This document shows positions 51,686-58,988 of a stretch of DNA of 64,000 nt, in pieces; position 1 is the first letter of the stretch, and every line of letters begins with the position of its first letter. Source of the DNA: Staphylococcus sp. KG4-3 (GTDB lineage Bacteria; Bacillota; Bacilli; Staphylococcales; Staphylococcaceae); the NCBI RefSeq assembly GCF_033597815.2, contig NZ_CP166245.1, positions 124,001 through 188,000 on the forward strand, read 5' to 3'. The notes under the pieces are model-generated. The model did no database searches, was not told the DNA's origin, and saw nothing but the letters and a program-made list of their open reading frames with translations. A program made the position numbers and the translations under genes.

Positions 51686-52243
51686 TTAATAGGTAGGTGG
51701 ATATACTACCCAGATTACTTTCAAAGTTTTATCGCTATTGTTTTTCCAAGCATGAGGAGATTGACTGCAAAAAGATATAGAATCATTTTCGTTCAGTATA
51801 TAAATATTATTATTAATTTCAATTTCCATTGTTCCTTGTAATATGGTAACAGTTTCTTCAATACTATTATGAGATAATAAGTCACCACTATTTCCGCCAG
51901 GCTTTATTTCACTATAAATTACTTCATAAGGAGCGTTCTCTCTGGTTATCATATAATCTGTAGATTTCTCATCAGGGTAAGAAAGTTTTTTAGCTTCTCC
52001 TTTTTTTACAATATAAGGAGTATTCTGAACATCTTCATTCTCGTTTAATAGCATTGTTAAATTTATTGATAGTGCGTCTGTTATTTTTTTTAATGTAGAA
52101 ATAGAAGCTGAAGTAAAACCTCTTTCAAATTGACTGATAAAGCTGGGTGTAAAACCAGTATCTTTCGCAAGTTTATTAATAGTTATATTTTTTCCTTTTC
52201 TAATATTTCTAAGTTTTTGACCTATTTTTATATCAGTATCCAT
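51686..52243 (-). CDS. XRE family regulator with C-terminal cupin domain
   Basis: 185 residues from ATG 52243, with AAAGGAGAA upstream. The longer frame has no SD. HTH about residues 8-62 (INKLAKDTGFTPSFISQFERG), then a cupin from about 100 (GGNSGDLLSHNSIEETVTILQGTMEIEI) which binds small ligands in PuuR-type regulators. Divergent from the catabolic operon, with the palindrome 52300-52320 between them. It probably represses that operon until a substrate or intermediate binds. Confidence 0.9.
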   Translation of the reverse strand: MDTDIKIGQKLRNIRKGKNITINKLAKDTGFTPSFISQFERGFTSASISTLKKITDALSINLTMLLNENEDVQNTPYIVKKGEAKKLSYPDEKSTDYMITRENAPYEVIYSEIKPGGNSGDLLSHNSIEETVTILQGTMEIEINNNIYILNENDSISFCSQSPHAWKNNSDKTLKVIWVVYPPTY

Positions 52244-52299
52244 TGTAATTTTCTCCTTTTTATAATTGACAAATAAAAGCAAAACTATTAACCTGTACT

Positions 52300-52320
52300 T
52301 AATTAAGTGTCACTTAATTA
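52300..52320. promoter_or_regulatory. Operator candidate of the XRE-cupin regulator
   Basis: Perfect 21-bp palindrome: TAATTAAGTG, one central T, CACTTAATTA. It sits in the divergent region between the regulator and the catabolic operon. Confidence 0.6.
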
Positions 52321-52387
52321 TTGGGATTTGCTTATTTTAATTATAACAAATCGTTTACGGGCCTGTTTAAAAATTTTTAACACTAAA

Positions 52388-52401
52388 TGGAAGCGCTTTC
52401 T
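52388..52401 (+). promoter_or_regulatory. cre site (CcpA) in the catabolic operon leader
   Basis: TGGAAGCGCTTTCT matches the CcpA consensus TGNAARCGNWWWCA in all but the last base. It lies about 130 bp upstream of the first coding start, a typical roadblock position for catabolite repression. Confidence 0.6.
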
Positions 52402-56097: not shown

Positions 56098-56116
56098 TGG
56101 AAAGGCGGAATATATA

Positions 56117-56695
56117 ATGGTAGAAATTAGAAAAATATTTACAACAATTGAAGAAACTTTTATTGAAGGGCAGAAAGAAGTAGAAGTTCCGGTAAAAATG
56201 ATAATAACTGCAGCAGTAATTAAAAACCCTTGGTATGGAGAAAGATACGTTGAAAACTTAAAACCAGAAATAGATGAACAAGCACCTATAATAGGAGAGA
56301 CTTTAGTTGAAGAACTATTTAAATATATTAATTCACCAGATGAAGTAGAAGCTTTTGGGAAAGCAGCAACAGTAGGTGTTGATGGAGAAATTGAACATGC
56401 TTCAGCCTTTATTCATACATTAAAGTTTGGCAATAAATTTAGAGATTCTGTTGAAGGAAAAAGTATACTTAGCTTTACAAACAAGCGCGGAGGCCCAGGA
56501 TCTAAAATTACTATACCTATGGTGCATAAAAATGATGATTCAAAACGATCTCATTTTGTTACATTTGAGACAAGTATTGATGATGCACCAAAACAAGATG
56601 AAATTGTAGTTGCTATTGGGGTTTCTACAGGGGGACGTCCACATCCTAGAACGGGAGATAGACATCAAGATATGAAAGACATGGGATTACTATAA
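56117..56695 (+). CDS. DUF1185 ('amino acid synthesis') family protein
   Basis: 192 residues, matching the PF06684-type pattern: MIITAAVIKNPW near residue 28, the GKAATVGVDGEIEHASAFIHT stretch, GPGSKITIPMVHK and the ending STGGRPHPRTGDR. Biochemistry of this family is not settled. It often occurs next to flavin monooxygenases and hydrolases in catabolic operons. Here it lies between the oxygenase and hydrolase genes. SD AAAGGCGG, and the next gene starts immediately after its stop. Confidence 0.75.
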   Translation: MVEIRKIFTTIEETFIEGQKEVEVPVKMIITAAVIKNPWYGERYVENLKPEIDEQAPIIGETLVEELFKYINSPDEVEAFGKAATVGVDGEIEHASAFIHTLKFGNKFRDSVEGKSILSFTNKRGGPGSKITIPMVHKNDDSKRSHFVTFETSIDDAPKQDEIVVAIGVSTGGRPHPRTGDRHQDMKDMGLL

Positions 56696-57508
56696 ATGAA
56701 AAACGGCATAACATCAGATAATACTTACTATGTGACTGCTGGTACAGGAGACCCTTTAATTTTAATTCATGGTGTGGGGCTTGATCATACAATGTGGAAA
56801 GAACATATAAACTATTTTTCAGCATATTATCAAGTGTTTGCTTATGATATGTTAGGTCATGGAAAATCAAGTAAGCCTGATAAAGAAAACTATGAATTAC
56901 AAGATTTCACAGAACAATTATTGAATTTTATGAATGAACTTAATATTCATGAACCCCATATTTTAGGGTTTTCCATGGGGGGGATGGTAGCACAGTCATT
57001 CGGTAGTGTTTATAAAGAAAAAGTTAAATCACTTATATTCTCTAATGCGGTTGCCCATAGAAATGACAAAGAAAGGCTTTCAGTACAAAAAAGAATACAA
57101 ACTGTAGAGAAATTAGGAAAAAATAGCACAATTGAACCAGCAATAGAAAGATGGTTTAATGATACATTTATCAAAAGTCATTCAAATCTAGTAAATCAAA
57201 TTAAACAGCGTCTTAAAGACAACGACGAAGACAGTTATTTAAAAGCATATCGAGTTTTTGGAGAAGCTGATCGCTTATTGTGGAAAGATTTATGTGAAAT
57301 TAACGCTCCTACACTTGTAATAACAGGTCAATTTGATCAAGGCTCGAACATCAGAATGGCAGAAGAAATGGTAAAGCGTATTTCTCAATCAAAATTAATA
57401 ATCATCCCAGAAGCAAGACATATGTTACCTTTAGAAAAATTTCAGATTTTCAATCAAAACGTACATGGATTTTTACAGAATATTGATAACGAGGTGAAGA
57501 ATAATTAG
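56696..57508 (+). CDS. Alpha/beta-fold hydrolase
   Basis: 270 residues. Oxyanion-hole motif LIHGVGLDHTMW, nucleophile elbow GFSMGG, acid residue in VITGQFDQGS and catalytic His in EARHMLPLEKF. The size and order resemble 3-oxoadipate enol-lactonase-type hydrolases. It likely splits an amide, ester or lactone made by the oxygenase. The start codon abuts the stop of the preceding gene (0-nt gap). Confidence 0.9.
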   Translation: MKNGITSDNTYYVTAGTGDPLILIHGVGLDHTMWKEHINYFSAYYQVFAYDMLGHGKSSKPDKENYELQDFTEQLLNFMNELNIHEPHILGFSMGGMVAQSFGSVYKEKVKSLIFSNAVAHRNDKERLSVQKRIQTVEKLGKNSTIEPAIERWFNDTFIKSHSNLVNQIKQRLKDNDEDSYLKAYRVFGEADRLLWKDLCEINAPTLVITGQFDQGSNIRMAEEMVKRISQSKLIIIPEARHMLPLEKFQIFNQNVHGFLQNIDNEVKNN

Positions 57509-58988
57509 TAAATTAAAGCAGTATAATATGTATATTAATGGAAAGTGGGAAAAACCAACAAATAGCTTGTATTTTGATAGTTATGATCCTGCTTCAGGGA
57601 AAGCATGGAGCCAAATAGCAAGAGGAAATGAACAAGATGTACAAAAAGCTGTTGAAGCTGCATATAATACATTTAAAAGTTCGTCTTGGTCTGAAAAGAC
57701 TTTCACTGAACGTGGACAAGTGTTAAGAAAGCTTGGAGACATATTAGCTAAAAAGGTTGATGAATTAGCTGCTTTTGAAACTCAAGATAATGGCAAAGTA
57801 ATTAGAGAGATGAAGGGGCAGCTCAGCTATATGCCACAATTCTTCTATTATTATGCTGGCTTGGCTGACAAAATTAGTGGTGATACATTACCAATTGATA
57901 AAAAAGATTTATTTGTTTATACAAAAAAAGAACCAGTCGGTGTTGTAGCAGCTATAACACCTTGGAATTCCCCTTTATATTTAACTTTTCTTAAGTTAGC
58001 ACCAGCGTTAGCAGCAGGAAATACTATAGTTATTAAACCATCTGAATATACTTCAGCTTCTCTTTTAGAATTTGCTAAGTTAACAGAAGAAGCAGGTGTA
58101 CCTGATGGTGTTATTAATATTATTACAGGATTTGGTAACGAAGTAGGCGATGCATTAACAACGCACCCATATATCAGTAAAGTAGCATTCACTGGTGGTC
58201 CAGAAGCAGCACGTCATATTGTGAAAAATACTGCTGAAAATTTTGCCAAACCAACTTTAGAACTTGGAGGAAAATCCCCCAATATCATTTTTGATGACGC
58301 AAATTTAGATAATGCTTTAATGGGCGTTCTAGCTGGTATTTTTGGAGGTACTGGACAGAGTTGCGTGGCTGGATCAAGAGTGTTCCTACATGATGATATC
58401 TATGATGAATTTATGGAAAAATTAGTAAAAAGAACTAATTCAATCGTTGTAGGTGACCCTCAAGATGACAGAACTGAAGTTGGTCCAGTAGCTACTAAAG
58501 AGCAATTAGAAAAAATTGAAAAATATGTATCAAAGGGAATTGAAGAAGGAGCTAATCTAGTTGTGGGAGGAAAACGACCAGAATATTTAAAAGAAGGATG
58601 GTATTTTGAGCCAACAATATTTGAACATACTAGCCATTCTGATTGTTTAGTGCAAGAGGAGATTTTCGGCCCTGTTCTAAGTATTATAAGGTTTAATGAT
58701 GAAGAGGAAATTATTAGATTAGCTAATGACACACGCTATGGTTTAGCCGCAGGAATTTGGACAGAAAACATTGGAAGAGCACAACGAATGATTGATTCCA
58801 TTGATTCAGGCATAGTATGGGTGAATACTTATAGAAGTATTTCGCCAATGGCCCCTATTGGCGGTTCAGGTATGAGTGGTTATGGCAGGGAAGGTGGTAT
58901 AGAATCTATTAATGAATATTTAAAAACAAAAACAATATGGATAAATTCCTCATCTGAACAAATGGCCGATCCTTTTGTAATGAGATAA
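57504..58988 (+). CDS. Aldehyde dehydrogenase, last gene of the catabolic operon
   Basis: About 494 residues if it starts at the ATT at 57504, or 486 from ATG 57528. AGGTGA lies 5 nt before the ATT and no SD precedes the ATG. The extra residues (SKLKQYN) are typical before the MYINGKW start. NAD-binding PWNSPLYLTFLKLAPALAAGNT, FTGGPEAARHI, catalytic Glu in LELGGKSPNIIFDD, Cys in GTGQSCVAGSR, and QEEIFGPVLSI. It oxidises an aldehyde produced upstream (semialdehyde type likely). Confidence 0.88.
   Translation: MSKLKQYNMYINGKWEKPTNSLYFDSYDPASGKAWSQIARGNEQDVQKAVEAAYNTFKSSSWSEKTFTERGQVLRKLGDILAKKVDELAAFETQDNGKVIREMKGQLSYMPQFFYYYAGLADKISGDTLPIDKKDLFVYTKKEPVGVVAAITPWNSPLYLTFLKLAPALAAGNTIVIKPSEYTSASLLEFAKLTEEAGVPDGVINIITGFGNEVGDALTTHPYISKVAFTGGPEAARHIVKNTAENFAKPTLELGGKSPNIIFDDANLDNALMGVLAGIFGGTGQSCVAGSRVFLHDDIYDEFMEKLVKRTNSIVVGDPQDDRTEVGPVATKEQLEKIEKYVSKGIEEGANLVVGGKRPEYLKEGWYFEPTIFEHTSHSDCLVQEEIFGPVLSIIRFNDEEEIIRLANDTRYGLAAGIWTENIGRAQRMIDSIDSGIVWVNTYRSISPMAPIGGSGMSGYGREGGIESINEYLKTKTIWINSSSEQMADPFVMR

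Follow-up and report, generated by a model that had tools for sequence, protein, structure and literature searches.

The 64-kb stretch of Staphylococcus sp. KG4-3 DNA analysed here (the window), which belongs to a genome of 3.02 Mb, carries an operon that is probably a second version of the trigonelline-type (tgn) ring-opening route, with a pyridinium betaine as substrate. We consider it rather probable that this operon was acquired and that it opens the ring of a charged N-heteroaromatic zwitterion of the pyridinium betaine class. Trigonelline itself is the leading candidate and is put forward tentatively; homarine or another N-methylpyridinium carboxylate is the next candidate. Homarine is described as an isomer of trigonelline and likewise as a zwitterionic betaine (PMC8269262), and PMC13390433 cites a 2026 paper on homarine catabolism. 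We see about even chances for the broader proposal of a second, separately assembled oxygenolytic pyridinium-betaine route in Bacillota, Actinomycetota and a Staphylococcus. This route would share an aldehyde dehydrogenase (ALDH) and a DUF1185 protein with the tgn type, and would have its own clade of luciferase-like flavin-dependent monooxygenases (LLM), its own reductase and hydrolase, interchangeable BCCT and NCS1 carriers and an orphan protein tied to riboflavin kinase. Its substrate may be a pyridinium betaine with a degradation not yet described. No description of this cluster type was found in a literature search that had most subscription journals outside it.

According to the list of open reading frames (ORFs), seven forward-strand genes with gaps of at most 21 bp and one 4-bp overlap form one tight unit, and an XRE-cupin gene lies divergently upstream (Table 1; coordinates are those of the window). 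The first-pass annotation had read this unit as a catabolic operon for a betaine-like or N-heterocyclic compound, and all the proteins it named are present, each above its Pfam gathering score (223.7 against 27 bits for the DUF1185 protein with PF06684, 471.5 against 27 bits for the BCCT carrier with PF02028). Its gene list had overlooked the small gene that opens the unit. For the XRE-cupin gene a start at the ATG at 52243 appears more likely than the listed TTG at 52282. The true start of the ALDH may be an in-frame ATT at 57504, behind GAGGTG, instead of 57528, since its relatives begin at about 57504 and the frame is open up to there.

Table 1. Genes and regulatory features of the operon, with the evidence for each assignment.
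Feature	Position	Strand	Basis
XRE-cupin transcriptional regulator, probable repressor	51686..52243	-	HTH_19, HTH_3 and Cupin_2 above Pfam cut-off
21-bp perfect palindrome TAATTAAGTG-T-CACTTAATTA, candidate operator of the XRE-cupin protein	52300-52320	.	
cre-like site ATGGAAGCGCTTTCT	52387-52401	+	Not better than chance
Small conserved orphan protein, 85 aa, TTG start	52520..52777	+	Homologues in Bacillota clusters; no Pfam family
FMN reductase, PF03358	52799..53350	+	Above Pfam gathering score; below MsuE, SsuE and CE1759 cut-offs
BCCT carrier, PF02028, altered aromatic box in transmembrane helix 8, staphylococcal stock	53347..54963	+	Pfam, alignment, tree
LLM flavin-dependent monooxygenase, PF00296, proposed ring-opening enzyme	54970..56097	+	Pfam, tree
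DUF1185 protein, PF06684 AA_synth (TgnF family)	56117..56695	+	Pfam, tree
Alpha/beta hydrolase, PF00561, proposed N-formyl enamide hydrolase	56696..57508	+	Pfam, alignment
Aldehyde dehydrogenase, PF00171, tgn-cluster type	57528..58988	+	Pfam, tree

As yardstick for the tgn type, which goes back to Acinetobacter baylyi ADP1, a pair of stand-in clusters was used. The cluster on Sinorhizobium meliloti pSymA (L084) has the order DUF1185-hydrolase-flavin reductase-LLM-ALDH, and noeB and nifT are found close by. The A. venetianus cluster (L101) has the same gene set plus a permease annotated as a cytosine permease (NCS1), and its LLM is 69% identical to that of S. meliloti. Like the operon in the window, both unite an LLM and a flavin reductase, an alpha/beta hydrolase, an ALDH and a DUF1185 protein in one cluster. 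Older mapping reportedly placed trigonelline genes near nif genes. Wild-type S. meliloti is reported to grow on 10 mM trigonelline as sole carbon source, and a strain without pSymA does not (PMC4207669).

DUF1185 is described as the family of HcdD and TgnF; the same source credits TgnF with a stimulating effect on TgnE in trigonelline degradation by Acinetobacter baylyi and reports that none was seen for HcdD (PMC7913881). Two DUF1185 structures are reported to have a conserved cluster of four histidines, and a role in amino-acid metabolism was proposed (PMC2954203). The window protein has histidines at seemingly corresponding places, in GEIEHA, FIHT, RSHF and RPHPR, and is 53% identical to the S. 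meliloti and 47% to the A. venetianus protein. In a tree of 38 DUF1185 rows, the Bacillota proteins, the tgn type and a few others fall into an 18-row clade (SH-aLRT 96), and actinomycete pairs and three DUF1185 proteins without an LLM lie outside it. The ALDH is 49% identical to that of S. meliloti and 48% to that of A. venetianus. A tree of 40 ALDH rows unites 24 cluster ALDHs, window and tgn types together, in one clade (SH-aLRT 99), and among the rows put in no BetB, no row resembling succinate-semialdehyde dehydrogenase (SSADH) and no other ALDH of this genome falls into it. Inside this clade, five tgn-type ALDHs sit beside that of an alphaproteobacterial cluster with a window-type LLM (L079).

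All trees come from quick searches with SH-aLRT support only, midpoint roots and chosen rows, namely 20 of 80 loci for DUF1185, 17 for ALDH and 16 for LLM, plus the reference clusters. The ALDH tree retains one row from this genome (L093) with a branch length of about 10, probably a sequence read in a wrong frame, and the LLM tree was flagged for long branches that meet. Judged by sequence, ALDH and DUF1185 share descent with the tgn-type set. From the identities and trees, these two are the common property of the window type and the tgn type, and the oxygenase, the reductase and the hydrolase are not, or not closely. Because DUF1185 follows the ALDH in the trees even where the oxygenase lineage differs, its partner is likelier to be the ring-opened product than the ring. 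The question of DUF1185 function is sharpened by this tree pattern.

Two further DUF1185 settings were seen in passing. On a Pseudosulfitobacter plasmid (L104, 3076-8672), two tandem DUF1185 genes accompany a UPF0280 protein, a ring-hydroxylating dioxygenase and a gene annotated as 6-hydroxynicotinate reductase, which places DUF1185 in another N-heterocycle setting. Actinomycete clusters (L033-L070) have two adjacent DUF1185 genes that form two separate groups in the tree.

The linkage of the core genes is conserved. A profile search of genome contigs with an alignment of 24 LLMs gave 141 confirmed loci, of which the best 80 were tallied and grouped by hand into 31 from Bacillota, 40 from Actinomycetota and 9 from Proteobacteria or SAR324. 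Since every tallied locus was found by LLM similarity, the counts refer to neighbours of this LLM and say nothing of how frequent the other genes are without it; neighbours were called by tblastn with score cut-offs set by us, and in high-GC loci the choice of ORFs relied on rough scripts. A comparison of gene order across genomes, proposed as a check in the first-pass annotation, found LLM-DUF1185-hydrolase-ALDH with gaps below 250 bp in 29 of the 31 Bacillota loci. One of these 29 (L003, Staphylococcus xylosus NJ) has an LLM 100% identical to that of the window, which we therefore take to be from the same species, S. xylosus; the exceptions are L026, with the hydrolase upstream, and L032, where the script picked an overlapping ORF. 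DUF1185, hydrolase and ALDH all lie near the LLM in 31/31 Bacillota loci; the counts are 40/40, 38/40 and 38/40 in Actinomycetota and 2/9, 7/9 and 5/9 in the remaining nine loci. Other neighbours of the 31 Bacillota clusters are GntR (28), YCII (24), a PF03358 reductase (22), BCCT (19), NCS1 (16), a PF01613 reductase (10) and an isochorismatase (10).

The Alkalihalobacillus deserti cluster (L012) has the same core order as the window, with identities of 77% for LLM, 75% for DUF1185, 66% for ALDH, 64% for FMN reductase, 61% for BCCT and 50% for the hydrolase. The Bacillota clusters differ from the window in having GntR in 28 of 31 loci where the window has XRE-cupin, and part of them have RibB, RibK, YCII, NCS1, isochorismatase or a second ALDH in addition. 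Within the genus, PF06684 was found in only 2 of 84 genomes, that of the window and another from its species. The LLM query had some match in 83 of these 84 genomes, the best one beyond those two at 31% identity (E 2.9e-11).

BCCT and NCS1 carriers replace each other in the relatives. One or the other lies near 65 of the 71 Gram-positive loci (29/31 in Bacillota and 36/40 in Actinomycetota). In the Bacillota loci, 13 have BCCT only, 10 NCS1 only, 6 both and 2 neither; in Actinomycetota, NCS1 alone was found in 26, BCCT alone in 10, both in none and neither in 4. Ten NCS1 proteins from seven Bacillota loci are 34-36% identical to the A. venetianus NCS1, and three actinomycete and three F21-type NCS1 proteins are 22-26% identical to it. 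The related A. fabrum set has a ProX-type betaine ABC transporter nearby. This carrier pattern, with its exchange of BCCT and NCS1 and the betaine ABC transporter, points to a charged N-heterocycle.

The aromatic box of the window BCCT reads W-F-I-G-Y, against the canonical W-W-x-x-W, so the alteration reported in the first-pass annotation is present. In an alignment that omitted L003 and two incomplete copies, the same altered box occurs in 15 of 16 other Bacillota cluster BCCTs, with a variant form in L026, and all ten actinomycete cluster BCCTs have WW. It also occurs in all five other staphylococcal BCCTs read (L131-L135, this genome's second copy included), and none of the five lies in a cluster like this operon. 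As all these non-cluster copies have it, the altered box characterises the subfamily rather than the operon, and we rejected it as a sign of an operon-specific substrate. In the tree, the window BCCT nests among staphylococcal BCCTs (99 and 100) and not in the Bacillota cluster stock, and a search of 108 genomes of the family at E 1e-100 gave relatives in 22, of which 20 belong to other species.

Several other carrier genes were recorded on the way. The second BCCT of this genome (L131, 8506-10128; C1:1415517-1417088) is 81% identical to that of the window, and the ORF list shows no catabolic genes next to it. The genus has a further LLM-BCCT pairing in Staphylococcus G078 (L132, 7934-10805), where a BCCT 82% identical to the window's follows about 70 bp after an LLM of the NtaA/DmoA type (461.5 against 279.7 bits). 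Three actinobacterial loci with neither BCCT nor NCS1 (L074, L081 and L082) have a gene of the Asp/Glu-racemase family before the LLM (PF17645 in L074). A different BCCT-LLM cluster lies on Arthrobacter crystallopoietes pLDW-10 (L086, 1665-15284), with BCCT, a PucR regulator, LLM, flavin reductase, ALDH, an amidohydrolase and a carboxymuconolactone decarboxylase family protein, and no DUF1185 annotated.

Weighing against a trigonelline-type route are the oxygenase, the reductase and the hydrolase. The window LLM is 28.8% identical to the S. meliloti and 27.7% to the A. venetianus LLM (23-29% over four tgn-type LLMs) and has a stretch of about 26 residues that is absent from the tgn-type LLMs in the alignment. 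In a tree of 30 LLM rows, the window type (17 rows, SH-aLRT 97) and the tgn type (6 rows, 99) form separate clades. The window LLM is thus not an orthologue of the tgn-type LLMs, and trigonelline therefore stays one candidate among several. The reductase is of the PF03358 family, where the tgn type has PF01613, and the two gave no BLAST match at E 1e-3; the tgn-type reductases are annotated as flavin reductase family proteins with genes of 940 bp, and that of the window is not of their type. The hydrolase belongs to the fold family of the tgn-type hydrolases and aligns with these at the GxSxG, Asp and His positions, but is only 28-32% identical to them (28-29% for S. meliloti and A. venetianus). 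The window further differs from the tgn clusters in having BCCT in place of ABC or NCS1 transporters, in its extra small protein and in its XRE-cupin regulator.

Other points on the same side concern the outer steps and the reference itself. The operon has no SSADH, and SSADH lies near only 2 of the 31 Bacillota clusters. The second ALDH of four Bacillota loci is nearest to a lactaldehyde dehydrogenase model, below its cut-off. On these grounds we rejected the idea that SSADH regularly belongs to the Bacillota clusters; the best SSADH-model score among the 16 ALDHs of this genome is 623.4 against 646.35 bits. The window BCCT may say little about the substrate, since it is of staphylococcal stock, has a second copy in the genome and has copies in 20 other species without the cluster. 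Neither BCCT nor NCS1 was found by tblastn near any of the nine proteobacterial or SAR324 loci (0/9). Finally, we infer the pSymA cluster to be the trigonelline cluster from the phenotype of pSymA loss and from the single place on the pSymA record matched by the window LLM at E 1e-5.

The region between the XRE-cupin gene and the operon contains the 21-bp palindrome of the first-pass annotation, which is exact. Its 19-bp core has no other copy in the genome at up to two mismatches, and when 52283-52520, a 238-nt stretch picked after the palindrome had been seen, was put through 5000 mononucleotide shuffles, 8 of these reached its arm length. The palindrome is a probable operator of the XRE-cupin protein. 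An XRE-cupin protein 47% identical to that of the window precedes the LLM in Scopulibacillus (L006); a palindrome common to the two was sought there and not found, and ACTTAAT half-sites are visible by eye. The cre site claimed for the operon does not rise above chance: ATGGAAGCGCTTTCT matches the loose pattern only, with one occurrence in the window against 0.87 expected, and a whole-genome scan found no match to the strict consensus TGNAANCGNTNNCA at the operon. The strict pattern occurs 24 times forward and 26 times in reverse in the genome, against 14 and 17 for a reversed-pattern control. A promoter scan gave 11 sites against 10.3 in shuffles. As the cre site fails this test and the operon has no SSADH, use of the substrate as a carbon source rests on analogy.

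The ring opening of a betaine N-heterocycle as in tgn, first suggested from the gene content, is thus kept in part. The membership of DUF1185 in the TgnF family, the tgn-type position of ALDH and DUF1185 in the trees and the exchange of carriers speak for it, and the LLM is not a tgn orthologue and the arguments from cre and box fall away. On the route that we propose, the XRE-cupin protein, probably bound to the palindrome, would keep the operon repressed as long as neither the substrate nor an intermediate is present. BCCT would import the substrate, the FMN reductase would make FMNH2, and the LLM would add oxygen and open the ring, giving an N-formyl-N-alkyl enamine aldehyde or the corresponding hydroxylactone. 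This ring-opened aldehyde would be oxidised to the acid by the ALDH, and cleavage of the N-formyl enamide by the alpha/beta hydrolase would yield formate, an amine and a C4 semialdehyde. A dehydrogenase encoded elsewhere would pass the C4 semialdehyde to the citric acid cycle, and DUF1185 may assist a late step, as reported for TgnF. This order of steps follows the tgn route as it is said to have been laid out by Perchat et al. in 2018. If the proposal is right, trigonelline-type pyridinium ring opening reaches Gram-positive bacteria, a staphylococcus included, and the operon offers a testable enzyme set for compounds of plant and marine-organism origin.

The same chemistry could instead have as its substrate an azaarene that is uncharged or not methylated (pyridine, a pyridone, or a derivative of nicotinate or nicotinamide); the carrier would then bring in a related compound or have been recruited incidentally. 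NCS1, which is annotated for nucleobases and similar uncharged rings, takes the place of BCCT in 10 Bacillota and 26 Actinomycetota loci (36 of the 71 Gram-positive ones), 10 of the 31 Bacillota clusters have an isochorismatase-family amidohydrolase nearby, and the staphylococcal stock of the window BCCT would suit a recruit. Pyridine degradation (pyr) in Arthrobacter sp. 68b reportedly uses a like enzyme set, of two-component flavin monooxygenase, dehydrogenase, amidohydrolase and SSADH, on an uncharged substrate. We nevertheless regard an azaarene substrate as unlikely, since BCCT carriers of two unlike subfamilies in 29 of the 71 Gram-positive loci would be odd for an uncharged compound, and in the nearest set that has a growth phenotype the compound concerned is trigonelline.

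Quite improbable is a role of the operon in removing a toxic or signalling compound or in scavenging nitrogen, rather than in growth on carbon. The failed cre site and the lack of SSADH in the operon would agree with it, but a dedicated importer argues against detoxification and the replicon with the tgn-type cluster supports growth on carbon in S. meliloti. Still less probable, and in our view very much so, is a non-aromatic betaine (carnitine, glycine betaine, proline betaine or a sulfonium compound), with the LLM as a C-H or N-dealkylating oxygenase. It could draw on the BCCT family membership of the carrier and on the ALDH, which scores highest against the betaine-aldehyde dehydrogenase model TIGR01804 (509 bits, cut-off 668.6 bits). 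That model is missed, however, as are the glycine betaine BCCT model NF047988 (323.5 against 650 bits, with the WWxxW box missing too) and TIGR00842 (338.4 against 407.55 bits); moreover, the ALDH groups with the tgn-type set and not with BetB, and NCS1 carriers and DUF1185 are a poor fit. A cleavage of sulfonates or sulfones like that by SsuE/SsuD or SfnG, ranked below ring or amide chemistry from the outset, is hardly credible: LLM and PF03358 FMN reductase do form the SsuD/SsuE and MsuD/MsuE pairing, but the scores lie so far under the cut-offs for SsuD (TIGR03565, 30.4 against 518.2 bits), SsuE (TIGR03567, 79.7 against 164.05 bits), MsuE (99.2 against 212.5 bits) and SfnG (50.1 against 382.95 bits) that SsuD/SsuE cleavage is excluded as a family, and the gene set is another one, with a linked hydrolase, DUF1185 and ALDH that have no role in sulfonate cleavage. 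The pyrimidine utilisation (Rut) pathway and an identity as bacterial luciferase were likewise rejected on family scores; for RutD (TIGR03611) the hydrolase reached 73.8 against a cut-off of 238.5 bits.

The small gene was listed as a 156-aa ORF with a GTG start at 52307. Its start was put at 52520 because relatives align to the last 85 residues only and because the TTG there is preceded by AAAGGTGGGG, a good ribosome site. The protein is homologous to proteins of about 100 aa that are present near 29 of the 31 Bacillota clusters. A large protein search gave 46 relatives at E 1e-3; those named by organism are all from Bacillota, and eight of the 46 are labelled riboflavin kinase by a source. 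No Pfam family was reached by 23 members, and searches against solved structures, PHROGs and Pfam gave nothing above noise. In some Bacillota relatives it adjoins riboflavin kinase, and in one (L009) the two are fused. Together with RibB near 6 and RibK near 9 of the 31 Bacillota clusters, this suggests that the Bacillota operons bring their own FMN supply, in keeping with an oxygenase of high flavin demand, and the small protein may supply or load FMN for the oxygenase.

The operon lies beyond the point at which two close relatives part from the window: the match with G060 ends at 51074 and that with G082 at 51056. Shortly before this point, at 49140-49292 and beside a DcuC/YfcC-like gene, there is a bioB remnant with 84% protein identity to the end of a relative's bioB. 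A whole, more diverged bioB follows behind the operon at 61910-62911, preceded by genes with Pfam AAA_26 and Aminotran_3, which we take to be bioD-like and bioA-like. As the relatives diverge at about 51 kb and the remnant and the second, whole bioB flank the operon, a single incoming block with both the operon and the biotin genes probably displaced the old bioB. BioD was found in 5 of 30 genomes searched, this one included. A functional link between the operon and the biotin genes was rejected, as the same-species locus L003 was the only one of 82 compared loci with matches to BioD and BioA close to the LLM; their neighbourhood is explained by joint acquisition. The gene after the whole bioB looks like bioF by eye.

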